A stretch of 64,000 nucleotides of DNA from Neolewinella persica DSM 23188 (GTDB taxonomy: Bacteria; Bacteroidota; Bacteroidia; Chitinophagales; Saprospiraceae): positions 124,001 through 188,000 of the forward strand of contig NZ_KB890458.1 of the NCBI RefSeq assembly GCF_000373105.1, read 5' to 3'. The translations under genes were made by a program, and so were the position numbers. The notes under the pieces are model-generated. The model was not told the origin of the DNA. It was given only the letters and a program-made list of their open reading frames with translations, and made no database searches. How positions within the stretch are numbered: the first letter of the stretch is position 1; each line of letters begins with the position of its first letter. Below, one piece after another: positions 24,335 through 52,560 of this stretch.

Positions 24335-25867
24335 TTAAGGATCCACAATTTGGACCTGACCATCCGTCCGCAGCTTGCCGGCCCTGATGGAAGTATAACG
24401 GGCCAGCATATTTTCAACCCTGTCGGCGTACTTCGCCTGATCAATAAGGTCGCCTTCCGGCTTCTCTTCCACATTATCTCTAAGGTTGTAGAGGGAGACC
24501 GGTTTGATCTCAACGCCTTCCCTATCAGACTGCATGATGAGTTTCCAGTCTCCATCCCGAAAGATGACTTTCCGGTCGGTACCTCCCTGAATCATCAGGT
24601 AATCACGGGAAGGAGCATTCGGTTCGCCGAGCAGCGTACCCAGGAAGTTATAGGAATCCATACCCTGGTGCGCGGCCAGGGACTGATTGGTGATGGCGGC
24701 CAGCGTGGCCATAATGTCGGTCCCGGAAACAAGATCAGGCGCAAAAATAGCTGCGGGTATATGACCTGGCCACGAGGCGATGAACGGAACCCGATGTCCG
24801 CCTTCAAAGCTTTGGTTTTTCCCGCCGCGGTAAATGGCCGGAGAGTTGTGCCCGGCTTTTATACTTTCTCCCCTCAGCAAGCCGCCGTTGTCGGAGGTAA
24901 AAATGAACAGTGTCTCGTTGGCAATACCTTTCTCCGCAAGCGCTTTGAGGATGAGGCCTACCTGGAGGTCAAGTTCTTTGACCATGTCAAGATGATAGCT
25001 CGGTGTGGTTCCCCGTACGGCCTCTCCGTCCAGCACCATCGGTGGGGTATGAGGTAAGTGCACTGCCTGGCTACAGTAATACATAAACAGGGGGCGGTCA
25101 TTAGCCGCCGTTTTGATGTAATTGACAGCTTTGTTTACCAGCAGTGGGCCCATGTCGAACGCATTCCAGTTGGAGTCCCCCAGGCCTTCCTCCTTGTCCA
25201 GTTTAAAGCCGAAGCGATCGACAGATTGCTGCGCTACTTCCGTGATTTTGGAGGCAGGATACAATGGCATCCAGACATCGTTTTCGTAGACAGCGTACGG
25301 GACATTCTGGATGCCGGCAGGAAATACCAGGCTATAGTCAAAGCCTTGTTCCAATGGCCCTGCTCCAACTATGCGTGAAACGTCAACGTTCAACTGAGCC
25401 TTCGAACGATCCGACTGGCGGTAGATTTCCTTAGTTTCTTTGCGGTAATAATCACCACCCATGTGCCACTTACCCAGGAAGGCCGTCTGGTAGCCTGCCT
25501 GCCGCATCAGCTTGCCGAGCGTCATGTCAGTATCCTTGATGGGGCTTTCCTGGTAGGCTCCCCAAACGCCCCAGGGCGCGTAGCTGTGGTAGGTGTTATT
25601 TCCTGTCATGATCGCGTAACGGGAGGGTGCGCAAAGGGCATTGGGCGAATGAGCGTCCGAAAAAGAAGTACCGGACGCCATTAGCCGGTCCAGGTTGGGT
25701 GTTTCAACGACGACCTTTTCACCCAGTAAGCGGCGGTAGCCGGAAAGGTCGCCCGGGCCGATGTCGTCGGCCAAAATAACTACTACGTTTGGCAGCCCGG
25801 ATTGGGCTGACTGGACTGCGGGTAGCAATAGAAAAAACGGGAGTAGGAAAAGGAGCAGAATTCTCAT
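24335..25867 (-). CDS. Formylglycine-dependent sulfatase (S1 family)
   Basis: 510 aa with a signal peptide (MRILLLFLLPFFLLLPAVQSAQS). Metal-binding Asp pair in ILADDIGPGD (34-35). The sulfatase signature CAPSRYAIMTG has Cys79 as the residue converted to formylglycine; GKWHMGG and TSDNGG (metal Asp-Asn) complete the active site. Periplasmic. In this context the substrate is likely a sulfated red-algal galactan, for example L-galactose-6-sulfate or a sulfated galactose; the specificity is not readable here. It stands opposite the GH2-like gene, with 286 bp between starts. Confidence 0.92.
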   Translation of the reverse strand: MRILLLFLLPFFLLLPAVQSAQSGLPNVVVILADDIGPGDLSGYRRLLGEKVVVETPNLDRLMASGTSFSDAHSPNALCAPSRYAIMTGNNTYHSYAPWGVWGAYQESPIKDTDMTLGKLMRQAGYQTAFLGKWHMGGDYYRKETKEIYRQSDRSKAQLNVDVSRIVGAGPLEQGFDYSLVFPAGIQNVPYAVYENDVWMPLYPASKITEVAQQSVDRFGFKLDKEEGLGDSNWNAFDMGPLLVNKAVNYIKTAANDRPLFMYYCSQAVHLPHTPPMVLDGEAVRGTTPSYHLDMVKELDLQVGLILKALAEKGIANETLFIFTSDNGGLLRGESIKAGHNSPAIYRGGKNQSFEGGHRVPFIASWPGHIPAAIFAPDLVSGTDIMATLAAITNQSLAAHQGMDSYNFLGTLLGEPNAPSRDYLMIQGGTDRKVIFRDGDWKLIMQSDREGVEIKPVSLYNLRDNVEEKPEGDLIDQAKYADRVENMLARYTSIRAGKLRTDGQVQIVDP

Positions 25868-26153: not shown

Positions 26154-29087
26154 ATGCCAACGGTAACCTCCCTTGCTTCAAGACTTTTCCTCGGCACCTG
26201 CGTCCGCGCCCCCAAAAAGGCAGCAAAGGGGAAAGGGGCGAAAAGAGGATGCTACAGTCTTCTTCTCCTGCCCTTCCTCCTTCTTTCTTTTACGCCCTTA
26301 TCCGCACAAAATGACCTGCTGGGCGATCGCCAGAAAATTAGGATCAATAACAACTGGCGCTTCCACCCGGGAGACGTAAAGGGTGACCCCACGGCTGTAA
26401 ATTTTGACGATAGTAGCTGGGAACAAGTCTCTGTTCCTCATGCTCCCGAACTGGTAAGCCTGGAGATGGACAGCACCCTCAACACCCGCCCGCAACTCGA
26501 ATACCTGCGCGACATCAGCTGGTATCGAAAGCAAGTGGACGTGCAGAATACACCAGGCCGCCGTTTCGTGATCGAATTTGAAGGTGTCCACCAGGTTACG
26601 GACCTGTACGTCAACGGGAAGCACGTAGGACAGTACGCCGTAGGTGGGTACACACCTTTCCATTTTGACGTCACGGATTACGTAACGCCGGGCCGCAAAA
26701 ACCTCATCGTTGTCAAGGCTGACAACTCCGCCAATGAGCACACGCCACCGGATCCGCATAAAACTGATTACATCAAGTACGGAGGTATTTACCGCGACGT
26801 TTACCTCGTGGTTACCAACCCGCTACACGTCACGTACAACTACGAAGCCTTTGATGCTGGCGTACACCTCACGACCCCGAGTGTTCGGAACCACGATGCG
26901 ACGATCAGTGTAAAAACGACTGTCCGTAACGAAAATGGCTACGGCACCCTGGCCCGGATCGTGACCCGCATCATCGATGCCGACGGATTGGTGCTGCACG
27001 CTATGGAACAGCGTGCACAGGTAGGGGCCGGGGAAGGGCATACCTTCCGCCAATCCGCCGCCATTACCGAAAACCTACACCTCTGGAGCCCCGACAACCC
27101 CTACCTCTACCGGGTACATTCCACGATTTATGAGGGAGATACACCGGTAGATTTTGCCCAGAATGACCTTGGTGTTCGTTGGTTTGAGCTGGTCGAAGGA
27201 AATAAGTTTATGCTCAACGGCAAACCGCTCTGGCTCGTGGGTGTCAACCGGCACCAGAACTACCCGATCATCGGGGATGCCACGCCGGATGCCCTCGGCC
27301 TGGCCGAAGCGCAGCAGTATAAAGATGCGGGGATGAACTGCATTCGCCTGAGTCATTACACGCAGGATGAGAGCTTCATCGCCGCCTGCGACCGTCTGGG
27401 AATTCTGGTTTACGAGGAGGCCCCGACCTGGATCGATTGGGGTGACCAACAGTGGTGGGATAACCTGGAAGAGGCCCTGCGCACTACCATCCGGGCCCAC
27501 CGAAATCATCCGAGCATCTTCATCTGGGGGGCGGGGATCAATCATCGGGGCGACATCCCGATGATGCACTTCGCCGCGAAGGAAGAGGACCCCTGGCGAC
27601 TCACCGCATCGGCCAGTAGTAATGGTTGGACGGGGCGGCCCAACGCTGGCGTTTCCGACGTTTACGCCACGATGGATTACCGCAACGCCATCCTCCCCGA
27701 CGGTGACTGGACGCTGAGCATGGAGCACCGGAACAGCCACGATGCGGAGGGCAACCAGCTGGTGATTAATCGTTACCTGAAGACCTCCAGAACTTTTGGT
27801 GCGCTGGCATGGGTTGGGGCGGATTACAACCAGATCATCATCGAAGGGACGCGGAAAAGTTATCGGTCGCATTCGGGCCTGTTGGACTTTTTCCGGCGGC
27901 CACGGCCCGTCTATCATTGGTACCGGGCGGAGTATGGTGCCGCGCCGATGGTCCACATCGCTGATGAGCGGGGCAGCTATGATGGCATCGTTCGGGTGTT
28001 CTCGAACGCCGAAGAGGTGGAGCTCTTTCACGACGGTGAATTGATCGGAAAAGCGCGGCCAACCCGGGGCGTGGACAAGAATATGTTGGCACATCCGACC
28101 TTTTATTTCCGGCATGATTTTCGGGCGGGGACGCTGGATGCAAAGGGGTGGAGTAATGGCAAAGTGGTGGCCACGCACAGCATTACTAAGGGCGGCAAAG
28201 CCGCCAAACTGGAAGTCAGCTTCAGCGAAGCACCAACTCCTTTCGAAGCGGGTGGGGGAGACGTCCGCATCGTTCACGCCCGGGTCCTCGACGCCGCAGG
28301 TAACCCCGTCGTTGACGCCGACAACAAGGTCACCTTTACCGTCACCGGCGCAGGAACCCTGGTTGACAACCCCGATAAAGCCATTCATCCCGTACTGCCG
28401 GAATTCGGCTGGGCGGCAATGTACGTTCGTAGCGGCGCTACACCGGGAGAGATCATGGTTACGGCTTCCGCACCCGGCCTTGCCGCCGGCCGTGCTAAAA
28501 TCCAGACGATGCCCTACGAAGCAAATGCGCTAATTGCCATTAAACCCTATCGGGAAGTACCCGAGGTTCGCCTTGATTTGGGGAAAAAGGGTACCCTCAA
28601 CGAGATCGGCTGGAAGCCCTGGAGCGATGCCGGCCTGTTATACACCTTATCAGATTTCAACGGCGCTAACATCACGATCTCCGGTAAGGACCTGGAGTGG
28701 TCAGACTACGCCACGCTCTTCGGCAACCTGAGCTACGTCGGAGCCGACGGCCTGTTCACCGAAGACCAGCAAATCACCCTGACCTTCACCGGCCTTCCGG
28801 CCGGCAATTATGAACTCAAGACCTACCACCACCCGCGTACCGGAGACGGGCCGCTGCTGAAACAGGTGAAGTATACCGTCGAAGACGCCACCGGAAGCCG
28901 GACCCAAAAAGGCCGCCAGGCCCCAATGGGCTACTGGGATAAAGCACGGATTCTGGAGCAGGAACCCTTGCATGGAGACATCGGATTCACTGTCGGCACG
29001 GATGGAAAGGCTACGGTAACGGTAATGCCGGTTGAAGACAAGAAAGGCGCTTTTTGGCTGAATGGGTTGGTGCTGCGGGGACTATGA
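26154..29087 (+). CDS. GH2-like secreted enzyme with altered acid/base residue
   Basis: 977 aa. After a long N-region (residues 1-30, partly encoded by the dispersed repeat) comes the signal segment CYSLLLLPFLLLSFTPLSAQ. Then a GH2 sugar-binding domain (INNNWRFHPGD..., about 60-220), an immunoglobulin-like domain, a TIM barrel (about 345-620), Ig-like DUF4982-type parts and a C-terminal malectin-like domain (about 800-977). In GH2 enzymes the acid/base Glu lies in WSxGNE; here the stretch is WGAGINHRG, with Asn463 in that place. The nucleophile candidate Glu524 in LSMEHRNS remains. It may be a diverged beta-galactosidase or porphyran enzyme using another proton donor. No better start than 26154 exists. 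Confidence 0.85.
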   Translation: MPTVTSLASRLFLGTCVRAPKKAAKGKGAKRGCYSLLLLPFLLLSFTPLSAQNDLLGDRQKIRINNNWRFHPGDVKGDPTAVNFDDSSWEQVSVPHAPELVSLEMDSTLNTRPQLEYLRDISWYRKQVDVQNTPGRRFVIEFEGVHQVTDLYVNGKHVGQYAVGGYTPFHFDVTDYVTPGRKNLIVVKADNSANEHTPPDPHKTDYIKYGGIYRDVYLVVTNPLHVTYNYEAFDAGVHLTTPSVRNHDATISVKTTVRNENGYGTLARIVTRIIDADGLVLHAMEQRAQVGAGEGHTFRQSAAITENLHLWSPDNPYLYRVHSTIYEGDTPVDFAQNDLGVRWFELVEGNKFMLNGKPLWLVGVNRHQNYPIIGDATPDALGLAEAQQYKDAGMNCIRLSHYTQDESFIAACDRLGILVYEEAPTWIDWGDQQWWDNLEEALRTTIRAHRNHPSIFIWGAGINHRGDIPMMHFAAKEEDPWRLTASASSNGWTGRPNAGVSDVYATMDYRNAILPDGDWTLSMEHRNSHDAEGNQLVINRYLKTSRTFGALAWVGADYNQIIIEGTRKSYRSHSGLLDFFRRPRPVYHWYRAEYGAAPMVHIADERGSYDGIVRVFSNAEEVELFHDGELIGKARPTRGVDKNMLAHPTFYFRHDFRAGTLDAKGWSNGKVVATHSITKGGKAAKLEVSFSEAPTPFEAGGGDVRIVHARVLDAAGNPVVDADNKVTFTVTGAGTLVDNPDKAIHPVLPEFGWAAMYVRSGATPGEIMVTASAPGLAAGRAKIQTMPYEANALIAIKPYREVPEVRLDLGKKGTLNEIGWKPWSDAGLLYTLSDFNGANITISGKDLEWSDYATLFGNLSYVGADGLFTEDQQITLTFTGLPAGNYELKTYHHPRTGDGPLLKQVKYTVEDATGSRTQKGRQAPMGYWDKARILEQEPLHGDIGFTVGTDGKATVTVMPVEDKKGAFWLNGLVLRGL
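26193..26211 (-). repeat. Dispersed GC-rich repeat inside the GH2-like reading frame
   Basis: GGCACCTGCGTCCGCGCCC encodes part of the N-region (GTCVRAP) ahead of the signal peptide. Confidence 0.75.
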
Positions 29088-29411: not shown

Positions 29412-31079
29412 ATGAAAAACCAACAATGTATGTTCCGACTGTTGCTTGTGACGTTGTTTCTGAGCCTGGGCATCGCCGCAGCAACCGCCCAATCCCCCCC
29501 AAACTTCGTCTTCATCCTCACCGATGACCAGTCCTACGGCTACCTCGGTTGTACGGGTAACGAAGTACTGAAAACGCCAAACATTGACCAGCTGGCGGCA
29601 GACGGCATCCTGTTCGAGAACGCCCACGTAACCAGCGCCATCTGCACACCTAGCCGCATCAGTATTTTACTGAGCCAGTATGAGCGCCGACACAATGTCA
29701 ATTTTAATTCAGGAACGAGCGTGGCCCCAGAAGCCTGGGCCCGGTCGTACCCCGTAGTTATGCGCAAGGCTGGCTACTACACCGGGTGGGTGGGGAAGAA
29801 CCATGCGCCAATCGGCGAAGGCGGTTACGGAAGCGGACTAATGGAAGAAAGCTTCGATTATTGGTACGCTGGCCATGGCCACCTGGGCTTTTACCCAAAA
29901 GATCGTCACGAAATTTTCAAGGGGGCGGAGGAAGATACCCAACCGGAAATCATACGTGAAGGCGTCGACGATTTCCTGATGACGAATGAACGCAAACTAG
30001 AAGGCGCCCTGCACTTTCTTAATGCGCGTCCGAAGGACCAGCCTTTCCTACTCTCCATCAACCTGAACCTCCCCCACGGCGCCGGCACCAACTCCATGCA
30101 AATACGGGAAACCGACGATGAGATATACAAAACCCTGTACCGGAACCAGACGATTCCCTTACCCGAGAATTACGTCGCCAAAGCAGACATAGGAGACCCT
30201 AAACTTCCAGCAGATCTGCTACGCACCGAAGACCGGCAGGCAGGTTACAACTTCGTCGATACCCCGGAGGCTACCCGTGAGCAACTGACCCGGGAATACC
30301 AGGCAATGGCCGGTATTGACCGCCTGGTGGGGAACCTCCGAATAGCCCTGGAAGAAGCAGGCCTGGCAAAGAATACCGTCCTGATTTTTTCTTCTGACCA
30401 CGGCCTCTTTCACGGCGAACAGGGGCTGGGTGGAAAAGCACTTTGCTACGAAGAAACTACTCATGTGCCACTCATCGTTTTTGACCCCGGCTTACCCGGA
30501 AGAAAGCGGGGTAAAAGAAGCTCGGCCCTGGTGCAATCCATCGATATAGCGCCCACAATGCTTGCCATGGCAAGTGTCCCTGTTCCAGAGAGTTTTCAGG
30601 GTAAGGACCTGGTGAAGTTAATAAATGGTGGGAAGAAGAAAGTCAGAGACTACCTGTTTACCGAAAACCTATGGTCCACAAAATTTGGAAATCCCCGCTG
30701 TGAGGCGGTGCAGGACATGGAATGGAAATACATTCGCTACTACCACAACAATACCTTCCCGGCAAGTAAGCTAATAGCAATAGCAAAAGAGCTTGGTATT
30801 AACGTTAATACGATGCTCTACCCGGTGCACGATCATGAAATTGCCATTTACCGCGACTACATCGAAGGGCCGCTGCGTGGAGAAGCACCGGTATATGAAG
30901 AACTCTATCACCTTGCCAAAGACCCTGAAGAACGATTCAATCTTATTACTGAACGGGCGCATGCCGGTATTCTACAGACCTTGCGGGCTGCCTGGAAACA
31001 GGAGATCACCCGGGCGAGGGGAGAAGGCAGGCCACTGATTTTACGTTATACGGCAGATAATGGGGCGAAGGCGGGATAA
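29412..31079 (+). CDS. Formylglycine-dependent sulfatase (S1 family)
   Basis: 555 aa with a signal peptide (FRLLLVTLFLSLGIAAATAQ). FILTDDQSYG gives the Asp pair (38-39). The signature is CTPSRISILL, Cys78 being the formylglycine site, and FSSDHGLFHGEQG provides the later metal ligands. It is of a different sub-type from the sulfatase at 24335 (low similarity outside motifs), so the two probably act on different sulfate positions of an algal galactan. It ends 5 bp from the convergent haloperoxidase-type gene. Confidence 0.92.
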   Translation: MKNQQCMFRLLLVTLFLSLGIAAATAQSPPNFVFILTDDQSYGYLGCTGNEVLKTPNIDQLAADGILFENAHVTSAICTPSRISILLSQYERRHNVNFNSGTSVAPEAWARSYPVVMRKAGYYTGWVGKNHAPIGEGGYGSGLMEESFDYWYAGHGHLGFYPKDRHEIFKGAEEDTQPEIIREGVDDFLMTNERKLEGALHFLNARPKDQPFLLSINLNLPHGAGTNSMQIRETDDEIYKTLYRNQTIPLPENYVAKADIGDPKLPADLLRTEDRQAGYNFVDTPEATREQLTREYQAMAGIDRLVGNLRIALEEAGLAKNTVLIFSSDHGLFHGEQGLGGKALCYEETTHVPLIVFDPGLPGRKRGKRSSALVQSIDIAPTMLAMASVPVPESFQGKDLVKLINGGKKKVRDYLFTENLWSTKFGNPRCEAVQDMEWKYIRYYHNNTFPASKLIAIAKELGINVNTMLYPVHDHEIAIYRDYIEGPLRGEAPVYEELYHLAKDPEERFNLITERAHAGILQTLRAAWKQEITRARGEGRPLILRYTADNGAKAG

Positions 31080-31084
31080 CCAGA

Positions 31085-32569
31085 TTATTTACCTAAATGC
31101 CGCTGGTAAAACTGCCAGTTCCACCTGGCTATCTTTCGACCCAATTCAAGACCTTCTACGTTATCAGCCTGAATGTGGTAGCCACCCAACACACGTGAGA
31201 ATCCAGCCATTTCAGCCGTCTCGGTAAAGGTGGGAAAATGTATGACGACGCTGTCTCCCAGGTTGTCCGGTTCCGTTAGCGCGCCCGGTACCAGTTTGAC
31301 GCTGGAGCCAAAAACATCGCTGCCAGTCCACAATTTCAGCGCTTCACCACAAGCACCGCTGATGGTACTGTGGCCGGAGACGTAGCTGGGGAACGGGGGG
31401 CAAAGGAAAGTCTCCGGAGAATATGGCCGCCACTCCTTCCCCTTCATCTTTCGGTTGCCAACTTCAGGACCGCCCCAGGCTTCGATGATTTGTTCGTCGT
31501 AGTACTCGTGCACAAGCGCATAAGGGCGGGCAAAATCGTAAAACATCTTGGCGTCCCAACTGGCGATGAAGGCATCAAGTGCTGTTACCTGGTTATAGAA
31601 GTACATCTTCACGTCCTGGTCGAGGGTGTGGTCGTCACGAAGCGAGACTTCCTGCGCAAATTTCAGCCAGTGGCCAGCTTGTTGGACGGACTGCGGGCCG
31701 TCACGCATAAATTCCACTAATGCGCGTTGCTCATCCGTTAAGGTACTCTGCAACTCCATGACCTGCCTGACTTCCTCTTTCAGTTGCTGCGATCCGATGC
31801 CGGGAGGCGGTCCGGGCCGGAACTGGTCTCCGGATTGTAACCCGATGGGTTTCACCTTACCCCAAAAGGGCGTTAGGCAACCGGGCGCAAAACGACCTCC
31901 GGCGCCATCCGCAAAGTATTTGGGTTGCCAGCGGATGGGGTCGGTCATTTCGTCGGCGGTATTGACCGGCTGGTAGCCGGTGTAGTCAGCGTAGGCCTCT
32001 CCTTCCGAACCGTCTTCTTCGCCGTACTGATTGGCGCCGTCTCCATGGCGCGCTTCAATAACAGCTTTTGCCGCCAGGTTTCCGATACCAGTCGGGGTCG
32101 CAGGGTCAAGCGATTGATCTGACGGATCATGCCCCAGTTCCCGCATCAGGTTTTCAAATAACGCCTGGTCGGTAAAATAGTACTCGTTCAGCGTTCGTAA
32201 CGCCGCGTAGCTGATGGCCTTTTCCTTATTGGCGAGCGTGTGCTCCGCAGCGGGCCTGCGGTCATGACCATTGAGGTATACCGGAATAGCCGACGCATTG
32301 TAGTGTGACCAGGCATCGAAAACAGCTACTGACACCAGCGCAAGGTACCGGGAGGTAACGGTTGGCCGGGGCTTGAACCTTTCAGTATCGTTAGCCTGGG
32401 CCGTGAGTGCCATCTTCCCCCACTGATAGGCCACATTGTCGGCTCCATGGGGCTCCGCTGACTTCGTAATAGAATTGTTTTCTGCGGCGGTTGGCCGGGC
32501 GCAAAAGGAGAAAAGCAAGGGCAGTAAAAGGAGAATGCCTCGTACTGATATTTTTCGGAGGGTTAGCAT
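31085..32569 (-). CDS. Vanadium-haloperoxidase/PAP2-superfamily protein
   Basis: 494 aa. The N-terminus is a probable lipoprotein signal (ILLLLPLLFSFCARP). The all-helical core carries the two signature blocks of vanadate-dependent haloperoxidases: PPFPSYVSGHSTISGA (Pro-Ser-Gly-His, near 397-412) and SRVLGGYHIQADN (Arg and the vanadate-binding His, near 458-470). An upstream KEWRPYSPET may supply the Lys/Arg pair. The family includes halide oxidases and acid phosphatases, and sequence alone cannot say which. It lies between sulfatase and agarase genes; red algae are rich in halogenated compounds, so a role in that niche is possible but inferred. Confidence 0.85.
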   Translation of the reverse strand: MLTLRKISVRGILLLLPLLFSFCARPTAAENNSITKSAEPHGADNVAYQWGKMALTAQANDTERFKPRPTVTSRYLALVSVAVFDAWSHYNASAIPVYLNGHDRRPAAEHTLANKEKAISYAALRTLNEYYFTDQALFENLMRELGHDPSDQSLDPATPTGIGNLAAKAVIEARHGDGANQYGEEDGSEGEAYADYTGYQPVNTADEMTDPIRWQPKYFADGAGGRFAPGCLTPFWGKVKPIGLQSGDQFRPGPPPGIGSQQLKEEVRQVMELQSTLTDEQRALVEFMRDGPQSVQQAGHWLKFAQEVSLRDDHTLDQDVKMYFYNQVTALDAFIASWDAKMFYDFARPYALVHEYYDEQIIEAWGGPEVGNRKMKGKEWRPYSPETFLCPPFPSYVSGHSTISGACGEALKLWTGSDVFGSSVKLVPGALTEPDNLGDSVVIHFPTFTETAEMAGFSRVLGGYHIQADNVEGLELGRKIARWNWQFYQRHLGK

Positions 32570-32819: not shown

Positions 32820-35024
32820 CTACCGCACCACCACCTTCCTATCCACCACGCCTTCAACAACGGTAACCCGTATAAGGTAAATACCTGCCGGCAAACTACT
32901 CATAGCGATGGAAGCCTGATCGCGGAGACCTGTTTTTGTCATCAGTACTCGTCCCTGCAGGTCCCTAACCGTGATGGTGGCACTACCCAGCCCGGCGGCA
33001 AGCTGAACGTTCAGACGATCCGTTACCGGGTTAGGGTAAACCTGCACCTGCTCCTCCGACAGTCTGGGCTGCTCCGTGCCAACAACGTTTGAACCACGAA
33101 TAACCTCTCGGCTGAAGGCAAAGGTCTGCAGGGCCACGGAACTGACGTGGCCGCCGGCGTCCGGGAAGGTCACTACCACCTCGTTATTCTCCCGGAGCAG
33201 CGCATAGGGAACAGGTATTTCCAACACGCCAAAAAACCGGTCCCGGTTGTTTTGGTCGTAGCCCCGATAATCTGATGGTACCGTCACTGAAGTCCCATTG
33301 ATGCGTAGAGTAGGGCGACGATTTTGTGGCCGGTCCCGGCCAATACCAAGTCGTAGGGTGGCCTCACCGTAAGTACTGCCAGTCTCCAGACCTTCTACCT
33401 GGAAGGTAATCGGTTGGTTGGCAGAAATCGGACGCAGCATATCGGTAGCGTAGACCTTCATTTCTTCATTGCTTTGGTCGAGGAGTAAATCTTCGGCGAA
33501 GTTGTATTCAATGACGGCCGTGGCCTCCTGCCCAAGGGTGAAGGAAGACAAGGTAGTCGGGGTGGTTTCTTCGAGTACCGGTACCCGATCCGGGCGCCGG
33601 TAAAGGTGTTTGATCTTGATGTCCGTTATCGCAGCATTCTGTGGGTTCAGTACATTCAGGTCAATCTCCTGATCAGAGAACTCCAGGCTGTTCAGGATAA
33701 CGTAGGCTTTTTTGCCATTCACGTAAGCGTCTATTTGAAGGTCAGGGTCAGGAGACCAGGTATCGATCCTTTTTCCCCGAACATCTTTCCACAGCTCGAA
33801 AAATTGCAACAACTCGGTATATACCCACCGGCTACCAGTTTCTCCGGCCAGTTCGCTTTGTTGGCGCATGAGGCGGTAAGGATATTTATTGCCGCTGGGA
33901 TGCGTCCACCACGTTGCTTTATTGAGCACAAAAGGGACAGTTTTCAACATCACGTCCGGCCTTTCCATCATCTGCATCATCATAGTACTGAAAGACCGCA
34001 GGTTGTGCCAGTCCCGTTCCTTGGTATAAGGTGTACCGTTAATGCCCGGGCTCCAGTAACCGTACTCGGAGATGTTCCAGGGTTTGATGGCTCCGGAGGT
34101 CATCACGCTGTACTGCTCAATCATATCGAGCACGGCCTCGATATTGGAGCCGCTGCGCCGTACCACCTGTTCCGGGTTGGAGGGTACGCCGTAGTCGTAT
34201 AAATGGACGCTGTAAAAATCCATGTTCTCACCGGCTTCATCGATGAACATCTTCCAGTTGTCCTGCCACTGATCGAAACCGTTGCGCTCTAACTCCGGAA
34301 AAGCAGCGGTATAGCCACCAACCAATACTTCTGGAACAATCTGTTCAAACTGCTCGGCAACGTCGTTGTGCCAGCGGGCAATTTCCAGGGGCGTGGTGCC
34401 CCAGTCTCCCGCTTGATAAAACGGTTCGTTCACCACTTCCACCATGGTCGGCCTTAGCTGTCCGCTATCTCCTCCTTCACCATAGAATTCTTTGACGGCG
34501 GTAGCCATGTACTCACCAAGTGCAGATCCGTTGGCGTAGGTCCAGCCGGCGGCGGGACCACAACAGGGATTTGGATTGGTTGGCCCGGAGGTGGGGAAGA
34601 TGGACATTTGCCCACCGATCATCATCGACCGGGTACGGTCTTCCAGGGCTCGAGCCGCGCTTGAGTTAGCGTAACGATTTCTGTCCGCAAGGCCTTTTGC
34701 CGCCAAATTGGAAAGCAAGGGGAAACCTGGCCTGGCCGGGTCCTCAAAAGATTGGTTGTATTGCCAGACCAAAGAGCCGTTGTCCCTGCCGAGGTACACG
34801 TCGTAATCATTCAGGAAGGAGGCGCGTTGTTCATCACTGTCCCAATCGTTGCTGTATAAGTTCTCGTGCATCACGATGAATCGTTCCCGGGCAAAGCTGT
34901 CGGCTCCGTTTACGGAGTGCCGCAGGTCTAGATTAATATCGATTTTTACTGCATTTTGGGCGACCATTTGGGCGCTGCCGCAGGTGCAAAGGAGTAGTAC
35001 AAAGAGCAGGGATGAGAAACGCAT
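32820..35024 (-). CDS. GH86 beta-agarase/porphyranase with T9SS sorting tail
   Basis: 734 aa. The signal peptide (MRFSSLLFVLLLCTCGSAQMVAQ) is partly encoded by the dispersed repeat. The catalytic TIM barrel (about 25-480) shows the GH86-like opening RHSVNGADSFARERFIVMHEN, acid/base VEVVNEPFYQAG and nucleophile NISEYGYWSPG. Beta-sandwich domains follow (to about 655). The C-terminus QVYPNPVTDRLNVQL... SLPAGIYLIRVTVVEG is a type A T9SS sorting domain, so it is secreted or surface-attached. Expected activity is endo-hydrolysis of agarose or porphyran. The 250-bp spacer on its right (32570-32819) shows nothing else. Confidence 0.85.
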   Translation of the reverse strand: MRFSSLLFVLLLCTCGSAQMVAQNAVKIDINLDLRHSVNGADSFARERFIVMHENLYSNDWDSDEQRASFLNDYDVYLGRDNGSLVWQYNQSFEDPARPGFPLLSNLAAKGLADRNRYANSSAARALEDRTRSMMIGGQMSIFPTSGPTNPNPCCGPAAGWTYANGSALGEYMATAVKEFYGEGGDSGQLRPTMVEVVNEPFYQAGDWGTTPLEIARWHNDVAEQFEQIVPEVLVGGYTAAFPELERNGFDQWQDNWKMFIDEAGENMDFYSVHLYDYGVPSNPEQVVRRSGSNIEAVLDMIEQYSVMTSGAIKPWNISEYGYWSPGINGTPYTKERDWHNLRSFSTMMMQMMERPDVMLKTVPFVLNKATWWTHPSGNKYPYRLMRQQSELAGETGSRWVYTELLQFFELWKDVRGKRIDTWSPDPDLQIDAYVNGKKAYVILNSLEFSDQEIDLNVLNPQNAAITDIKIKHLYRRPDRVPVLEETTPTTLSSFTLGQEATAVIEYNFAEDLLLDQSNEEMKVYATDMLRPISANQPITFQVEGLETGSTYGEATLRLGIGRDRPQNRRPTLRINGTSVTVPSDYRGYDQNNRDRFFGVLEIPVPYALLRENNEVVVTFPDAGGHVSSVALQTFAFSREVIRGSNVVGTEQPRLSEEQVQVYPNPVTDRLNVQLAAGLGSATITVRDLQGRVLMTKTGLRDQASIAMSSLPAGIYLIRVTVVEGVVDRKVVVR
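34970..34992 (+). repeat. Dispersed GC-rich repeat inside the GH86 signal peptide
   Basis: GGGCGCTGCCGCAGGTGCAA(AGG). Read on the coding strand it gives LLCTCGSAQ, the end of the signal peptide. Confidence 0.75.
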
Positions 35025-40142: not shown

Positions 40143-41270
40143 CTATTTCCGTTGTGCAAACTCTGTACATTTCAATTCCTGTTCCACCTCAAACTCCCCC
40201 AGCTTCCCCCAGTCAAATTCCACCCCCGTCCCCGGAGTCTCCGGCGCAACGGCTCGGGCATTTTCGACCACAAGGGGCCTTTTCGTGTACTCATCGATCG
40301 GGAAACTGTGTACTTCCAACCAGCCGCCGTGCGGCTGACTGGAGATAAGACTCACGTGCAACTCCTGCATCCCGTGAGCGCAGACCGGTATATTATGTTC
40401 CTTCGCCAGCGCCGCTGCCGCCAGCCAACCACTAATGCCGCCGCAGTTGGAAGCATCCGGTTGGATGAAGGAAAGCTCCGCCTGCTCGAAAGCATAGCCG
40501 AATTCGTAGATCGTATGCAGGTTCTCACCCATCGCCAGCGGGATGTTGGTCGCTCGGGCAATCTTTCCGAAGCCCCGGTAATCGTCCGGTAGGGTAGGCT
40601 CCTCAAACCAGTAAATATCGTAGGGCTCGAAGGCCTTTGACATGGTAATTGCCTGCTCGACGGTCTGGCTGTAGTTTGCGTCAACCATGAAGGTGATGTC
40701 CGGACCGATCAACTCCCGGACGGCTTTCACCCGGGCCACATCTTCCGCCAGTTCCGGCCGGCCAACTTTGATCTTTACCGCAGTGTAACCCCGGGCCAGG
40801 TAACTCCGGATATTGTTCAGCAGTTTCTCCAGCGGAAACATCAGATCGATGCCGCCACAGTAGGCTTTGCAAGTACGGTCGGCACCGCCCGCCACTTCAA
40901 CCAGCGGTTTACCGGCACGCTTGCAGCGGATGTCCCACAGCGCAATATCGATTGCGCTAATGGCAAAAGAAGCGATACCCCCACGACCAACGTAGTGGAT
41001 GTGCCACTCCATAAAGTCGTAGAGCCTGGCAATGTCTGTTCCATCCTGACCAATTAGGGCCGGCGTGAAATCATATTTTACCATCGCCCTGATGGCCTGT
41101 CCGCCCTTGCCGCCGGTGTAGGTATACCCCGTTCCTTCACTGCCGTCCTCGAGCGTAACGGTCACCGTTACCAACTCGAAGTGGAAGTGGTCCCCGTGTT
41201 TGGCATCCGAAAGAACTTCCGCCAACGGGACCTTGAACAGCCGGGTTTGGATCGATTTAATTTTGGTCAT
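40143..41270 (-). CDS. 3,6-anhydro-L-galactonate cycloisomerase (enolase superfamily)
   Basis: 375 aa, mandelate-racemase/muconate-lactonizing fold. N-terminal capping domain ([20 protein letters not shown]). The barrel has KIKVG (base Lys), DANYS (metal Asp), [10 protein letters not shown] (Glu), AMGENL (Glu) and [13 protein letters not shown] (His). The [10 protein letters not shown] start, [19 protein letters not shown] and [14 protein letters not shown] segments match what I recall of the agar-pathway cycloisomerase. It turns 3,6-anhydro-L-galactonate into 2-keto-3-deoxy-L-galactonate. The aldehyde dehydrogenase that makes its substrate is the next gene upstream. Confidence 0.88.
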
Positions 41271-41283
41271 TATTCTTTATCTA

Positions 41284-41457
41284 ACTCGTCGGCCGAGGCG
41301 GGCGTTAGCCCTGACTCGTCCGCCGAAGGAGTTATTTGATTCTTCCATTCCCCCGATAAGGCCGGGGTTAAACTTGACGCATCGCTTATTGGAGTCTTCC
41401 ATGTGGCCGCTTTCGCTCGGCGGACGAGTCAGGGCTGCGTCCGCCTCGGCCGACGAG
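41284..41457. repeat. Large inverted repeat between dehydrogenase and cycloisomerase genes
   Basis: Arms 41284-41327 and 41417-41457 are near-complementary. They contain CTCGTCGGCCGAGGCGG, AGCCCTGACTCGTC and CGCCGA, with a few mismatches. They are built from the same CTCGTCsGCCGAG unit as the cruciform at 39996-40110. Confidence 0.85.
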
Positions 41458-41467
41458 CGAAAGCTCT

Positions 41468-42913
41468 TCAGTACTTCAGGTAAGTAGTTTTCTTCTCCAT
41501 GTATTGGTCCAATCCATAGCGCCCATCTTCGCCACCAGTGCCACTCAGCTTAAGCCCATTGTGGAAACCCTGGTGCAATTCTCCGTGGCCCCGGTTGATG
41601 TAGATCTCACCGAATTCCAACACCTGGTGCAGGCGCATGATCTTGCTCAGGTCCTTGGTGAAGACCATCGCCGCCAGACCAAATTCACAGTCGTTTGCGT
41701 AAGCTATCGCCTGATCAAACCCTTCAAATTTGATGACTGGAAGGACCGGGCCGAACAGCTCTTTGTGGACAATGTCCATCTCCTGCGTAACGTCTTCGAT
41801 GATGGTGGCTTCGAAGAAGTGGCCTTTGGCAAAAGCGTCGCCTTTAGGCCGGGCTCCTCCCCGGGTGATCCGTCCACCTTGCTCGACGGTTTTGGCCACC
41901 AGGTTTTCCAGGTTCGTGACGCTGCGTGCCTCGGTCAGCGGGCCGAGGTCAGTGTCTTCCTCGATGGGGTCACCGAGCTTTAGCTTGTCCACTTCTGCCA
42001 GAAATTTGGCCATGAACGCATCGTAAACGGACGCTTCCACGTACATGCGCTCGTTGCAGGTACAGACTTGACCAAAGTTGTCGAAACGGCTGTGCAGCGC
42101 ACCAGCCACGGCTTGGTCGAGGTCGGCGTCGGCAAAAACGATGCAGGGAGCTTTCCCCCCGAGCTCCAGCTGTACGTGGGTCAGGTTATTGGCGGCCGAC
42201 CGGGCAATGGCCTGTCCGGTCGGGGTGCTGCCCGTCATGGTGACCATCTTGGTGAGGGGGCTTTCCACGAGGGTTTTGCCTACTTCCACATCACCGGTGA
42301 CCATATTGAGGATACCGTCGGGTACACCAGCTTTTTTGGCGAGATCGCAGAGTGCAAGCGTGGAGAGGGGAGAAGCAGGGGTCGGTTTAACGACCACGGC
42401 GTTCCCCGTTACCAGCGCCGGACCGATCTTCCGCCCCGCTAAAGCCAGTGGGAAATTCCAGGCCGTGATCGCGACCACCACACCGCGTGGCACCCGATGA
42501 ATGAGCAGTTGCTCGTCCGGGTTGTCACTGGGGATGATGTCGCCCTCCAGGTGCCGGGCGTGGGATGCGGCATATTCTATAAAAGAACAGGTAACCTCCA
42601 CTTCGAAGCGGGCTACTTTCAATAGTTTGCCCTGTTCCCGGGTAATCAACTGCGCCAGTTCCTCGGCGTTAGCACGAATTTCGGCGCAGAAGGCGTGCAG
42701 CACCTTCGCTCGCTGGATGGCGGGGAGTTTACCCCAGGCCTTCTGTGCGGCGGTCGCCGTCTCCAGCATCGCTTGCACGTCGACTGCGCCGGCGATGGGG
42801 ACGGTGCCAACCACCGAACCATCCGTCGGGCTGTAAATGGTATCCGTTTCGCCGGTTAGGGATTCTATCCAGGTGCCGTTGCGGTACAATTTAAAATCGT
42901 AGGTCTTTTGCAT
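41468..42913 (-). CDS. 3,6-anhydro-L-galactose dehydrogenase (aldehyde dehydrogenase family)
   Basis: 481 aa. Classical ALDH: ITAWNFPLALAGRKIGPAL (oxyanion Asn), QLELGGKAPCIVFADADL (catalytic Glu) and FDNFGQVCTCNERMYV (nucleophile Cys). The C-terminus NRGHGELHQGFHNGLKLSGTGGEDG is characteristic of the anhydrogalactose/lactaldehyde subgroup. Its position between a Zn-type dehydrogenase (13 bp upstream) and the cycloisomerase fixes the likely reaction: NAD(P)-dependent oxidation of 3,6-anhydro-L-galactose to 3,6-anhydro-L-galactonate. Cytoplasmic. Confidence 0.87.
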   Translation of the reverse strand: MQKTYDFKLYRNGTWIESLTGETDTIYSPTDGSVVGTVPIAGAVDVQAMLETATAAQKAWGKLPAIQRAKVLHAFCAEIRANAEELAQLITREQGKLLKVARFEVEVTCSFIEYAASHARHLEGDIIPSDNPDEQLLIHRVPRGVVVAITAWNFPLALAGRKIGPALVTGNAVVVKPTPASPLSTLALCDLAKKAGVPDGILNMVTGDVEVGKTLVESPLTKMVTMTGSTPTGQAIARSAANNLTHVQLELGGKAPCIVFADADLDQAVAGALHSRFDNFGQVCTCNERMYVEASVYDAFMAKFLAEVDKLKLGDPIEEDTDLGPLTEARSVTNLENLVAKTVEQGGRITRGGARPKGDAFAKGHFFEATIIEDVTQEMDIVHKELFGPVLPVIKFEGFDQAIAYANDCEFGLAAMVFTKDLSKIMRLHQVLEFGEIYINRGHGELHQGFHNGLKLSGTGGEDGRYGLDQYMEKKTTYLKY

Positions 42914-42926
42914 AGTATTTATGGGC

Positions 42927-43949
42927 TTATGCCTGACAATCTAACAGCACTTTCATGCCGTCCGGGTTGCGGTCAATGTTTTCAAATACGGATTGTACGT
43001 CGGTAAGCGGTGCTACGGAAGTGACCAACTGGTCCAAAGGCAATTCCCCGCCTGACACCAGCGCGATCGCCTTTTCGTAGTCTTCCGGCTCGTACACCCG
43101 GGCACCAATCAGCTTGAGTTCTTTCCAGAAGAATTTGAACAGGTTCACCGGCCGTGGCTGACCATGAATGGCTACCATGACGATGCGCCCGCGAATGCCG
43201 GCTACTTCGGTCATGATGTCAACGGTAGGCTGTACTCCGGCGACTTCAAAAACCACGTCAGCCAGGCCACCATCGGTTTCCCCGGATACGTATTCTACTA
43301 AATCGGTGTCGGCAGGACTAACAACTTTGAAGCCAAGGGATCTCGCCAACTCGATCCGAACTGGGTTCATCTCAGAAATGATCACCTCTCCTCCGGCCTC
43401 ACGCGCCACCAGCGCAACTAGCATACCGATCGGACCGCCGCCTAAGACCACTACACTTTCCCCTGGAATGAGACCCGACAAGCGGACGTCGTGACAGGCA
43501 ACGGCCAGTGGTTCGATCAGTGCAGCTAAGCGCATGTCCGTATCGGAAGGCAGTTTGTGTAGGGTAAATGCGGGTACATTCCAGTACTGCTGCATGGCCC
43601 CCGGGCTGTCTATTCCGATAAACTTTAGTCCGGCCGCAATGTGACTGAAGCCTTTGTCGGAGGGCTTCTCCGCCCGGTCGTCCAGCGGGCGTACAACGAC
43701 GCGATCGCCTACAACATATCCACTAACTCCTGTGCCGATGGCATCGATGGTGCCAGACATTTCGTGGCCAATCGTCAGCGGCATCTTTACCCGCTGATCC
43801 ATCATGCCGTGGTAGATATGGACGTCGGTTCCGCAGACGCCGCAATACGCGACTTTGATGCGGACTTCCCCTTCTCCAGGTTCTTCCCTGGGGACATCAA
43901 CAACGGCGAACTTTTTGTTGCCGGTGTATTGGGTTGCTTTTATGGTCAT
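42927..43949 (-). CDS. MDR-family alcohol/sugar-acid dehydrogenase lacking the structural zinc lobe
   Basis: 340 aa. Catalytic-zinc residues are present (CGVCGTDVHIYHG, IGHEMSG), as is the nucleotide motif VVLGGGPIGMLVALVA. The usual four-Cys structural zinc loop is replaced by PLDDRAEKPSDKGFSHIAAG, so it should bind one zinc only. Tightly coupled with the anhydrogalactose dehydrogenase (13 bp), it may oxidise or reduce a hydroxyl of 2-keto-3-deoxy-L-galactonate, as in the marine agar pathway; this is inferred from position. Confidence 0.82.
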   Translation of the reverse strand: MTIKATQYTGNKKFAVVDVPREEPGEGEVRIKVAYCGVCGTDVHIYHGMMDQRVKMPLTIGHEMSGTIDAIGTGVSGYVVGDRVVVRPLDDRAEKPSDKGFSHIAAGLKFIGIDSPGAMQQYWNVPAFTLHKLPSDTDMRLAALIEPLAVACHDVRLSGLIPGESVVVLGGGPIGMLVALVAREAGGEVIISEMNPVRIELARSLGFKVVSPADTDLVEYVSGETDGGLADVVFEVAGVQPTVDIMTEVAGIRGRIVMVAIHGQPRPVNLFKFFWKELKLIGARVYEPEDYEKAIALVSGGELPLDQLVTSVAPLTDVQSVFENIDRNPDGMKVLLDCQA

Positions 43950-49311: not shown

Positions 49312-52300
49312 ATGAAGCAAGCTTATGCATATTTCACTGTTTTCATACTCCTGCTAGTAGCATTTTCTGCTTGTGGACCAAGGATGCCCGAAGGCGTAGA
49401 AGTAGCCTACGCGGCCTTGCCCGATAAGCTGGATTACAATATCCACGTGAAGCCCGTGTTGTCGGACAAATGCTTCCTGTGTCATGGCCCCGATGCGGCC
49501 AACCGTGCCGCAGACCTGCGCCTGGATGAGCCAGGGCACGTGGTCGGGAAAGACATTCTGGCCCGTATCTTCAGTGAAGATCCTGACTTCGTTATGCCAG
49601 AGACGTCGGCTAAAATTCCGTTGTCGGATCACGAAAAGGCGGTCATCGCTAAGTGGATCAAACAGGGGGCAAAGTATGCAGACCATTGGGCCTTCCTTCC
49701 CCCTAAGCGACCAACACCACCTCAAGTAGAAGATGCCGAGTGGAACGTTCAGCCGATCGATCAATTCATTCGTACTAAACAAATAGAGAAGGGTTTCGGC
49801 TTCGCTCCCGAAGCGGATCGCGACCTCTTGCTGCGTCGCCTTAGTTTTGACCTCACCGGCCTGCCACCAACCCCGCAGGAAATTGCAGCCTTCGAAAACG
49901 ACCAGGACCCTAAAGCCTACGAAACACAGGTGGATCGCCTGCTGGCCAGCCCCCGGTATGGTGAACGCATGGCCACCCAATGGATGGACCTTGCCCGATT
50001 TGCCGATACCCATGGCTACACGGTTGACCGGTACCGGGACATGAGCCCCTGGCGCGACTGGGTGATTGAAAAATTCAATGAAAACCAGCCTTACGACGAG
50101 TTTGTCACCTGGCAACTTGCGGGAGACCTGCTGCCTGACGCCACCCGCGAACAAGTACTGGCGACCGGCTTCAACCGCCTCCACCCACAGAACCTGGAGG
50201 GCGGCATTATCGAAGAGGAATTCCGGAGTGCTTACGTTGCCGACCGCGCAGACGTATTTGGTACCGGTCTGTTGGGCCTGACCATCTCTTGTGCTAAATG
50301 CCACGATCATAAGTTCGACCCCATCAGCCAACGGAATTACTACGAGTTTTACAGCTTCTTCAACAACGTTGATGAGGCGGGGCTGATTCCCTGGGACGGC
50401 GCTACGCCGCCGCCGCGGCTGGACCTGCCCACCGAACGCCAGGACAGCATCATCACTTACCTGAAGAACCTGGAAAAGGAACAGGAGGCTGCCATTGCGA
50501 CGTTAACGGAAGAGAATAAGGATAAAGCCAGCGCCTGGGTCGAAGCGGAGGGCTATCGGCGAATCGCTCCTGCTTCGGGACTCAGGGCGCACTTCCCGCT
50601 CAATGATACCCGGATGGTCAACGCCATCCGACCTTCAGAGAAAGGCAAGATGGACCGCAAGTTTTCACAAAATGAATCTCCGGAACTAACCGAAGGGCAC
50701 GATAGCCGGGGGCTCTTGCTGGATGGTGATGCCTGGCTGGATCTGTATCCCACAGGAGTTTACCGAAGAGACGAACCGTTCACGATTTCCATGTGGACCA
50801 AAATCCCAAAAGACCTGAAAACCGGTTTCCTTTTCCACAAAGGTCAGGGTACCCGCCTGCACGGCGAACGGGGATATCACCTCTACCTCGATACTTTTGG
50901 ACTGCAGCTGCTGATGGCCCACGTTAATCCGGGAAATTCCATCGTTGAATTTGCTAAAATGGATGTTCCGCGTGATGAATGGATCCATCTGGCGACGACC
51001 TACGATGGCTCCAGCAGAGCGTCCGGTTATAAGTTGTTCATGAACGGTAAGGAAGTGAGCACAGAGGTGCTGAATGATGATCTTTCGAGAGACATTATTT
51101 TTGACGACATGACCGATCCGATCTACGCGGACGTGATTGAGCCCGGTCTCCAGATTGGCGCTCGTTGGCGTGGGAAAGGTGTACGGGGTACCGGCGTAGA
51201 CGATATTATGGTTTATAGTCGGGAATTGAGTCCGCTGGAAGTATTTCGCTCGGGTAATCCGGATGCGGCAAAGGAACTTTTGGCTAAGGAACCCTCGACA
51301 CTTACGGCTTCCGAAAAAGATATGCTCCGGCAACATTACCTGACGGTGTCTTTGCCAGCCTACCAGGCTGCCCGCAAAGACCTCCGGGCTACGCGTTCCC
51401 GCTTGATCGACAGCATGGAGTTCGTAAAGGAAATCATGGTCGTTCGGGAGATGAAAAAGCCCCGGCAATCACATATCCTCGATCGGGGGCAGTACGATGC
51501 ACCGACCAAGCCGGTGGTTACCCAGACTCCCGACTGGCTGGCGCCTATGCCCGAGGGGGCACCCGCCAACCGACTTGGCCTTGCCCAGTGGTTGTTCCAG
51601 CCGGAGCATCCGCTGACGGCCCGTGTGGCAGTTAACCGATACTGGTTACAATTCTTTGGCCGTGGATTGGTGAAAACGGCGGAAGACTTCGGAAACCAGG
51701 GGGAATTACCCACGCACCCAGAATTACTGGATTGGCTGGCTACGGAGTACATCAATAATGGCTGGGATACGAAGGCACTGCTCAAGACCATCGTAATGAG
51801 TAAGGCTTATCGGATGAGTTCGAAGCCGGTGAGTGAACAGCAACGTTTGGCGGATGTGGACAATGTTTGGTTGGGGCGCGGCCCGTCGGGCCGCCTGGCC
51901 GCCGAAATGATCCGCGACAACGCCCTGGCAGCAAGTGGCCTGCTCAACGACAAGATCGGCGGTAAAAGCGTCAAGCCCTACCAGCCGGAAGGACTCTGGA
52001 AAATGAATAATGCCACCTACGTGCAGGATGTGGGCGACGACCTTTACCGGCGCAGCCTTTATGTATTCTGGAAGCGAACGGTGCCACACCCGACGTTGGG
52101 GACGTTTGACGTACCGAACCGAAACGAATGTACCGTGCGCCGGCAGGAAACTAATACGCCGCTACAGGCACTGGTGTTAATGAACGATCCTGCCTTTGTG
52201 GAGGCGGCGCGTATTCTGGGCACCCGGATTACAAAGTCACCAGATAAAAGTGCGGCAATTACAGAAGTCTTTACTTATCTCAGTGGAAGGCCTCCGGTGG

Positions 52301-52497
52301 AGGAAGAAGTGAATATTCTCAGTCAGGTTCGGAAGAACGAGCTAGCGACATTCAGTGAGTTCCCCGCCAAAGCCGAAGGGTGGTTGACGGCTGGCTTTAC
52401 CAAGGCTGATCCGAACCTTAACCCGATCGAGGTAGCGGCGGATGCGGTCCTGGCCAGTGTCATCATCAACTCCGATGCCGTGATTACTAAGCGATGA
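49312..52497 (+). CDS. PSCyt1-DUF1549-LamG-DUF1553 lipoprotein
   Basis: 1061 aa. Lipoprotein signal ending AFSACGP. An N-terminal planctomycete-type cytochrome c motif KCFLCHGPD (C54, C57, H58) is followed by DUF1549 (about 120-350, with a second CAKCHDH near 330), a concanavalin/LamG insert (about 455-640) and DUF1553 (about 745-1010, NRYWLQFFGRGLVKTAEDFG, FDVPNRNECTVRRQETNTPLQAL). Such proteins pair with DUF1501 partners, as here (63 bp downstream). Enzymatic role not established; redox-linked polysaccharide or sulfo-ester chemistry has been speculated. Confidence 0.9.
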   Translation: MKQAYAYFTVFILLLVAFSACGPRMPEGVEVAYAALPDKLDYNIHVKPVLSDKCFLCHGPDAANRAADLRLDEPGHVVGKDILARIFSEDPDFVMPETSAKIPLSDHEKAVIAKWIKQGAKYADHWAFLPPKRPTPPQVEDAEWNVQPIDQFIRTKQIEKGFGFAPEADRDLLLRRLSFDLTGLPPTPQEIAAFENDQDPKAYETQVDRLLASPRYGERMATQWMDLARFADTHGYTVDRYRDMSPWRDWVIEKFNENQPYDEFVTWQLAGDLLPDATREQVLATGFNRLHPQNLEGGIIEEEFRSAYVADRADVFGTGLLGLTISCAKCHDHKFDPISQRNYYEFYSFFNNVDEAGLIPWDGATPPPRLDLPTERQDSIITYLKNLEKEQEAAIATLTEENKDKASAWVEAEGYRRIAPASGLRAHFPLNDTRMVNAIRPSEKGKMDRKFSQNESPELTEGHDSRGLLLDGDAWLDLYPTGVYRRDEPFTISMWTKIPKDLKTGFLFHKGQGTRLHGERGYHLYLDTFGLQLLMAHVNPGNSIVEFAKMDVPRDEWIHLATTYDGSSRASGYKLFMNGKEVSTEVLNDDLSRDIIFDDMTDPIYADVIEPGLQIGARWRGKGVRGTGVDDIMVYSRELSPLEVFRSGNPDAAKELLAKEPSTLTASEKDMLRQHYLTVSLPAYQAARKDLRATRSRLIDSMEFVKEIMVVREMKKPRQSHILDRGQYDAPTKPVVTQTPDWLAPMPEGAPANRLGLAQWLFQPEHPLTARVAVNRYWLQFFGRGLVKTAEDFGNQGELPTHPELLDWLATEYINNGWDTKALLKTIVMSKAYRMSSKPVSEQQRLADVDNVWLGRGPSGRLAAEMIRDNALAASGLLNDKIGGKSVKPYQPEGLWKMNNATYVQDVGDDLYRRSLYVFWKRTVPHPTLGTFDVPNRNECTVRRQETNTPLQALVLMNDPAFVEAARILGTRITKSPDKSAAITEVFTYLSGRPPVEEEVNILSQVRKNELATFSEFPAKAEGWLTAGFTKADPNLNPIEVAADAVLASVIINSDAVITKR

Positions 52498-52527
52498 GGG
52501 TAATCAACATGGCCCCCTACCTTTCCC

Positions 52528-52545
52528 TGCACCTGCGTCCGCGCC
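52528..52545 (-). repeat. Dispersed GC-rich repeat, solo copy
   Basis: TGCACCTGCGTCCGCGCC between the DUF1553 and DUF1501 genes, 15 bp before the latter's start, GC end facing it. Confidence 0.8.
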
Positions 52546-52560
52546 AAAAAAGCTAAAATC

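Follow-up and report, generated by a model that had tools for sequence, protein, structure and literature searches.

In the genome of Neolewinella persica DSM 23188, a gene on contig NZ_KB890458.1 encodes a protein with the architecture of glycoside hydrolase family 2 (GH2) that reads WGAGINHRG where these enzymes carry their catalytic acid/base glutamate. The gene lies in a 64,000-nucleotide stretch, referred to here as the window, and raises the question of whether such a protein can still act as a glycosidase and, if so, which residue would serve as its proton donor. An initial annotation of the window had proposed altered chemistry or a different role for a protein that keeps the GH2 architecture and nucleophile while lacking the glutamate. 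That central claim is borne out by the present analysis, in which His464 emerges as the most probable replacement, within a conserved clade named here for its Asn-His-Arg (NHR) motif.

GH2 architecture and the altered catalytic motif

The gene and the domains of its product are arranged as follows:

26154..29087, + strand: NHR-type GH2 protein, 977 amino acids, intact open reading frame
26343..26822, + strand: Glyco_hydro_2_N, GH2 N-terminal sugar-binding domain, residues 64-223 (Pfam, E 1.7e-18)
26871..27179, + strand: Glyco_hydro_2, GH2 immunoglobulin-like domain, residues 240-342 (Pfam, E 3.8e-12)
27192..27737, + strand: GH2 TIM-barrel domain, residues 347-528 by Pfam (E 8.3e-22); the barrel runs further in the predicted model
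27990..28172, + strand: DUF4982 domain (Pfam)
28242..28490, + strand: Glyco_hydro2_C5 domain (Pfam)
28509..29084, + strand: predicted C-terminal jelly-roll domain, residues 786-977, a possible carbohydrate-binding module (predicted model)

The five GH2-protein domains (sugar-binding, immunoglobulin-like, TIM-barrel, DUF4982, and Glyco_hydro2_C5) all score above the curated Pfam cut-offs and lie in order, and the three that define GH2 are present in the expected order, in agreement with the architecture first described. The protein misses the cut-offs of the NCBIfam equivalogs GalA (321.7 versus 900), GalB (251.8 versus 900), and LacZ4 (256.2 versus 950). Its closest solved structures are GH2 enzymes, with 6HPD as the best profile match (372 bits). 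Structure prediction, one of the checks suggested with the initial annotation, was based on 61 of the 78 family sequences described below and gave a model with a mean predicted local distance difference test score (pLDDT) of 88.0 and a predicted template modeling score (pTM) of 0.90, numbered as residue minus 48. This predicted model matches the GH2 fold over a range of about 7-747 of 929; the top ranks in VIA-align are nearly tied, with 6B6L at Z 33.1 (root-mean-square deviation, rmsd, 3.3 over 676 residues), 5EUV at Z 32.7 (rmsd 2.6, 661 residues), and 6HPD at Z 32.5 (rmsd 3.1, 706 residues). Mean pLDDT is 78 in the ten-residue block that holds most of the altered motif and 80 in the block with Glu524.

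The residues at issue map to the following positions:

27525..27551, + strand: WGAGINHRG motif, residues 458-466, after barrel strand 4 (sequence, alignment)
27540..27542, + strand: Asn463, most probably the kept Asn of the Asn-Glu pair (N in 25/25 Glu-type relatives; gap-free 5EUV match; one hhalign run contrary)
27543..27545, + strand: His464, most probably at the canonical acid/base Glu position (H in 78/78 rows, which were chosen by the motif; E in 25/25 Glu-type relatives)
27414..27419, + strand: Glu421-Glu422, acidic pair where barrel strand 3 ends, invariant (78/78); proposed partner of His464
27678..27680, + strand: Tyr509 (78/78)
27723..27725, + strand: Glu524, predicted nucleophile on barrel strand 7 (78/78; 25/25 Glu-type relatives; strand at model 472-477)

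The motif, Asn463, and Glu524 can be read directly in the sequence as originally claimed. Clan GH-A enzymes are classically described as working with a carboxylate acid/base pair, and canonical retaining GH2 enzymes carry the nucleophile Glu on barrel strand 7 and the acid/base Glu directly after the strand-4 Asn. Glu524 occupies the first of these positions, whereas WGAGINHRG is devoid of Glu under either of the alignments considered below.

Which residue has taken its place is indicated by several comparisons. When 25 Glu-type GH2 relatives (L005, a further frame from the L002 gene, excluded) are aligned jointly with the family in MAFFT, all 25 have N at column 463 and E at columns 464 and 524. 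When the barrel fragment is matched to 5EUV with phmmer, IWGAGINHR falls over IWGVRINES, and no gap interrupts the motif. The nearest relatives, L024 and L029, are of a WExxLNE type (WEASLNE and WETALNE), and hhalign with these two, using a profile from every second NHR row, places His464 opposite Glu. The second suggested check, a family tree, was computed from 20 NHR and 20 Glu-type rows with columns 455-470 omitted; the 20 NHR rows form one side of a branch with support 100/100, and L024 and L029 group with them at 98/94, with L029 on a long branch and the root set at the midpoint. Because the joint alignment, the gap-free 5EUV match, and the WExxLNE nearest relatives agree, Glu to His464 is the better placement and most probably the correct one, a judgment that rests on sister-group evidence rather than on coordinates. 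The initial annotation was thus right that the glutamate is missing, but Asn463, which it had set in the vacant position, appears to be the conserved Asn; as the substituted residue, Asn463 is rejected as the likeliest placement and retained as a caveat.

Conservation of the NHR clade and its neighborhoods

Relatives were retrieved from 84,980 species genomes with two N-terminal peptide patterns that do not include the motif, giving 86 relatives; 80 loci were kept. NHR is present in 79 of the 80, and the remaining locus, L107, stops at a contig edge before the motif; L060 was missed by the motif pattern scan, yet NHRG is seen in its translated frame. Since the loci were found by N-terminal patterns and not by the motif, the sharing of NHR among these sequences is more than chance. 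Open frames longer than 700 amino acids that bear the motif come from 77 of the 80 loci, and a decaying pseudogene is rejected on these grounds. Besides L107, the exceptions are L036 and L073, which yield short frames if translated from the match start; both bear the motif, which in L036 sits within an open stretch of frame. Merging of identical sequences reduced 81 motif frames longer than 700 amino acids to 78 rows, which represent the window and those 77 loci (L104 and L068 are represented by L008 and L016; L036, L073, and L107 lie outside the set). Among 129 GH2-like frames in total, 79 are NHR, 48 are NE, and 2 have neither motif; the latter, in L093 and L096, are probably upstream frames taken by an over-extended match, and two of the four NE frames counted at spacing 4 (L020 and L123) are a pattern artifact (FHSLGNE).

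The 78 rows were selected by the NHR motif and not by the other active-site residues, and E524, Y509, D205, H367, R398, H401, E421, E422, W492, and W553 are invariant in all of them. By reference to LacZ, Asp205, His367, Arg398, His401, Glu421, Glu422, Tyr509, and Trp553 are expected to have roles in the -1 site; Tyr509 matches the GH2 Tyr that positions the nucleophile, and the LacZ equivalents of Glu421 and Glu422 adjoin the acid/base. Pairwise identity within the family has a median of 49% and a minimum of 33%, a divergence at which the distribution of these sequences is not one of recent copying. Seven named phyla are represented: Bacteroidota (61 rows), Pseudomonadota (4), Planctomycetota (4), Verrucomicrobiota (3), and Calditrichota, Acidobacteriota, and Kiritimatiellota with one row each, all three from metagenome-assembled genomes; the other 3 of the 78 include the window. 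Three full-length homologues from the same phylum share WGAGINHRG and E524 with the window protein. Of 395 genomes that sample the phylum evenly, 14 yield a match at E <=1e-70, and 3 of these, the window's genome included, are of NHR type. All nine Zobellia species genomes searched have an orthologue with GINHRG. A Persicobacter and a Catenovulum plasmid carry it too, under no more specific annotation than GH2 TIM-barrel protein. Within the window's own genome, other matches to the protein are partial and at most 37% identical.

Two features set the window protein apart from its relatives. At residue 556 (27819-27821), 76 of the 78 family members have His, but the window protein shares an Ala with L030 and so appears to belong to a divergent subgroup. 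The open reading frame (region 26154-26300) also extends about 27-29 residues further at its 5' end than three aligned homologues, and the true start may be a downstream alternative codon.

The genomic setting of the window gene is summarized below:

24335..25867, - strand: sulfatase (Pfam, structure search)
29412..31079, + strand: sulfatase (best solved match 6HR5, E 1.3e-59; exo-L-galactose-6-sulfatase 7LHA, E 2.7e-32)
32820..35024, - strand: GH86-type enzyme with a T9SS tail (best solved match 8H97 beta-agarase; GH86A beta-porphyranase 4AW7 fourth of four)
35591: Glyco_hydro_43-like gene (Pfam), which, like the Glyco_hydro_43 neighbors in other loci, is taken to be GH117-like
40143-43949: MR_MLE, aldehyde dehydrogenase, and zinc dehydrogenase genes
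21317: GH16-like gene, which lacks a Pfam match of its own and was joined to the GH16 group by BLAST clustering
44063: second GH2 of the window, canonical (WSIGNE and PVMGTEN)

The position between two sulfatases, the agar/porphyran character of the region (the GH86-type, Glyco_hydro_43-like, and MR_MLE/dehydrogenase genes), and the canonical nature of the other GH2 all agree with what had been described at first. One GH29 relative, 38% identical to the GH29 of locus L052, lies on the same contig about 9.6 kb past the window end. A vanadium-haloperoxidase-like DUF6851/VCPO-like/PAP2 protein (31085-32569, - strand) adjoins the downstream sulfatase. Farther along, a PSCyt2-PSD1 (DUF1549/DUF1553) protein is followed by a DUF1501 protein (49312-54000, + strand) in this apparent Bacteroidota genome; such a gene pair is typical of planctomycetes.

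Neighbors were compared between the 66 of 80 NHR loci that span at least 18 kb (14 shorter ones were excluded) and 18 control loci around Glu-type GH2 relatives, with GH86 and GH16 labels taken from Pfam and PDB names. GH29 is found near 31 of the 66 NHR loci and near none of the 18 controls (Fisher p 7.6e-5). The remaining classes are sulfatases (39/66 versus 6/18, p 0.065), GH117-type (13/66 versus 0/18, p 0.061), GH16-type (12/66 versus 0/18, p 0.061), and GH86-type enzymes (11/66 versus 0/18, p 0.11); any of the GH117, GH16, or GH86 types occurs in 26/66 versus 0/18. The single GH29 representative searched, from L052, has as best matches 7SNK (deposited as an alpha-L-fucosidase) and 7LJJ (exo-alpha-L-galactosidase). 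Passages of PMC12316285 identify both entries as BpGH29, an enzyme that works on porphyran immediately ahead of a GH2 beta-galactosidase.

Two further arrangements recur. A DUF5060 gene lies directly 3' of the NHR gene in L048, L057, L078, L079, L088, L098, L154 (14832-16478), and L155 (14877-16493). The arrangement spans Pseudomonadota and Bacteroidota and may mark a conserved unit of two genes; the DUF5060 product is apiosidase-like in L098, the one scanned. In the Zobellia loci L051, L053, L093, L096, and L101, the NHR gene is flanked by genes for a DUF7133-cytochrome c protein and an FAD-dependent oxidoreductase.

A proposed reaction and its alternatives

At the level of sequence, the clade, the Glu-to-His exchange (with the alignment caveat above), the kept nucleophile and -1-site residues, and the frequent red-algal galactan neighbors are established. 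The reading favored here, which is given about an even chance, is that the window protein is an exported, exo-acting, beta-galactosidase-like enzyme of GH2 fold from this clade, with His in place of the acid/base Glu. The hydrophobic, export-signal-like segment seen on inspection of the N-terminus makes it look like an exported protein, and the substrate would most likely be sulfated agaran oligosaccharides. Since the remaining catalytic residues expected of such an enzyme are present, a beta-galactosidase reaction in which His464 donates the proton is the most economical reading. Terminal beta-D-galactose would be cleaved by double displacement, in which Glu524 would form the galactosyl-enzyme and His464 would give and then take back a proton, probably tuned by its candidate partner Glu421/Glu422. 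An anionic leaving group, for instance the L-galactose-6-sulfate of porphyran, would be matched by a neutral His next to Arg465, which is invariant. In Bacteroides plebeius, a sulfatase (S1_11), GH29, and GH2C act in turn on porphyran (passages of PMC12316285); the GH2 step of this series, or its sulfated counterpart, would fall to the NHR protein.

Several observations weigh against this reading or parts of it. Hhalign with the commoner WxxxNE type alone sets Asn463, not His464, opposite Glu. Between barrel strands 5 and 7 the model shows no helix of at least four residues, so the changes at the active site may go beyond a single residue. Of the 25 Glu-type relatives, 23 also have Glu422 and the two nearest lack it, so that its conservation, as aligned, is no specific sign of a His/Glu dyad. 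In the neighbor comparison, the controls were picked by a different search and loci from related species are not independent; when each class is compared by itself, p falls below 0.05 for GH29 alone, and 14 of the 66 NHR loci have none of the five neighbor classes (controls, 12/18). Finally, the window GH86 is nearer to agarase than to porphyranase and the window sulfatases have best matches other than L-Gal-6-sulfatase, and the substrate is therefore uncertain.

A further-reaching and rather improbable proposal is that the NHR lineage exchanged a carboxylate acid/base for a His-centered (possibly His/Glu) catalyst and changed its scope as well, either toward selective cleavage of galactosides with anionic, sulfated leaving groups or toward a reaction in which phosphate or another anion replaces water as the nucleophile. 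The departure within GH2 is real and conserved in the sequences compared; it is probably catalytic.

It is unlikely that another carboxylate (Glu421, Glu422, or some other invariant acid) is the acid/base, with His464 as a mere auxiliary. The invariance of the pair at the end of strand 3 would fit such a role, although the presence of Glu422 in 23 relatives with a normal acid/base means that its conservation needs no new function.

A reaction without any protein acid, in which the substrate supplies the acid or has a good leaving group, is also improbable. Myrosinase-like enzymes provide the precedent, and both the absence of the Glu and the sulfatase genes common nearby are compatible with it; however, His464-Arg465 has been kept in 79 of 80 loci rather than drifting, and we know of no unusual leaving group in agar or porphyran. 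The initial suggestion that no acid is needed is thus not the likeliest, as the invariant His464 is itself a possible proton donor.

Also improbable is the suggestion that the protein only binds glycan as a non-catalytic GH2 descendant. In addition to the lost acid/base, it could draw on the C-terminal 192 residues, which are predicted as a jelly roll (pLDDT 86.9; model from 38 family members) weakly resembling carbohydrate-binding modules. Foldseek matches of this domain are weak (template modeling score, TM, about 0.4 on the query), with GH115 domains the best; many are to unrelated jelly rolls, and a few are to binding modules, namely CBM61, an agar-binding CBM6, and one that binds porphyran. 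For this part, first described as malectin-like, Pfam assigns no family in the window protein and, across the 38 C-terminal members, finds three families in one member each at E <=0.01. A pseudoenzyme is disfavored because the nucleophile is invariant, as are the other -1-site residues (Tyr509, His367, Arg398, His401, and Trp553), in 78 of 78 rows from seven named phyla.

Very improbable is a retaining phosphorylase or transglycosidase in which the neutral His lets in an anionic nucleophile. For the phosphorylase proposal in GH3, Macdonald 2015 is reportedly the cited precedent. Phosphorolysis would be of little benefit to a protein with an export-type N-terminus. Passages of PMC6987092 describe a His acid/base in GH3, but phosphate had little effect on the enzyme studied there, and its authors doubt that all such enzymes are phosphorylases. 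Equally remote is other chemistry, such as elimination on an oxidized (keto) sugar supplied by neighboring oxidoreductases. The FAD-dependent oxidoreductase and DUF7133-cytochrome genes that adjoin the NHR gene in five Zobellia loci speak for it; against it, they occur in only 7 and 9 of the 80 loci.

Comparison with known systems

Among the open-access papers listed in a search by titles and abstract openings, no description of a GH2 with His at the acid/base position and no publication on the activity of an NHR-type GH2 was found, nor was any open-access paper found for likely locus tags of the NHR gene. The passages considered of PMC5698469, PMC5849685, PMC12316285, PMC12549532, PMC3268748, PMC6987092, PMC5613140, and PMC6950322 mention no such GH2.

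The GH2 beta-D-galactosidase of Paracoccus sp. 32d (5EUV/5LDR) shares with the window protein the barrel fold (Z 32.7), the strand-4 WxxxxN spacing, and the gap-free motif alignment. The Glu of its WGVRINES is His in WGAGINHRG, and it has 731 residues, whereas the window protein has 977 and a C-terminal jelly roll. 6HPD, titled a beta-glucuronidase with the molecule name beta-galactosidase, is both the top profile and the top Foldseek match, at Z 32.5, with 22% identity in the Foldseek alignment. BuGH2A and BuGH2C share the fold of the NHR protein (predicted model), and together with BpGH2C, which is not named among the structure matches listed, they come from red-algal galactan loci of the same kind; the likeness is one of fold and locus. 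Exo-beta-galactosidase activity has been published for BuGH2C and BpGH2C (passages of PMC5849685 and PMC12316285).

Identity with the carrageenan beta-galactosidase ZGAL_3633 is rejected by inference from genome G543, which is taken as Zobellia galactanivorans from its gene order. There, the GH2 that neighbors two GH28 genes has the motif WSIGNE and is separated from the NHR gene by about 30 kb. PF02836 matches at 10 places in this genome, the NHR gene included. According to passages of PMC5698469, ten Z. galactanivorans GH2 constructs were all active on pNP-beta-galactoside; should the NHR protein be one of the ten, this would speak for catalysis.

If the favored reading is true, a natural Glu-to-His exchange fixed in a broad clade would show how a retaining glycosidase can preserve or alter its reaction with an alternative proton donor, and would caution against labeling NHR genes simply as beta-galactosidases. 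The nearest parallels lie in GH117, GH3 NagZ, and GH156, which are families and folds other than GH2. In the GH117 3,6-anhydro-L-galactosidase, a His that shares its proton with an Asp is the general acid by quantum mechanics/molecular mechanics (QM/MM) simulation, and His/Asp dyads have been proposed for GH3 NagZ and the GH156 sialidase (passages of PMC11574756). GH156 inverts and GH117 has a separate general base (same passages), so the likeness to the NHR protein is in mechanism only. The NHR protein would then be, besides GH117, a second His-centered catalyst in red-algal galactan loci.

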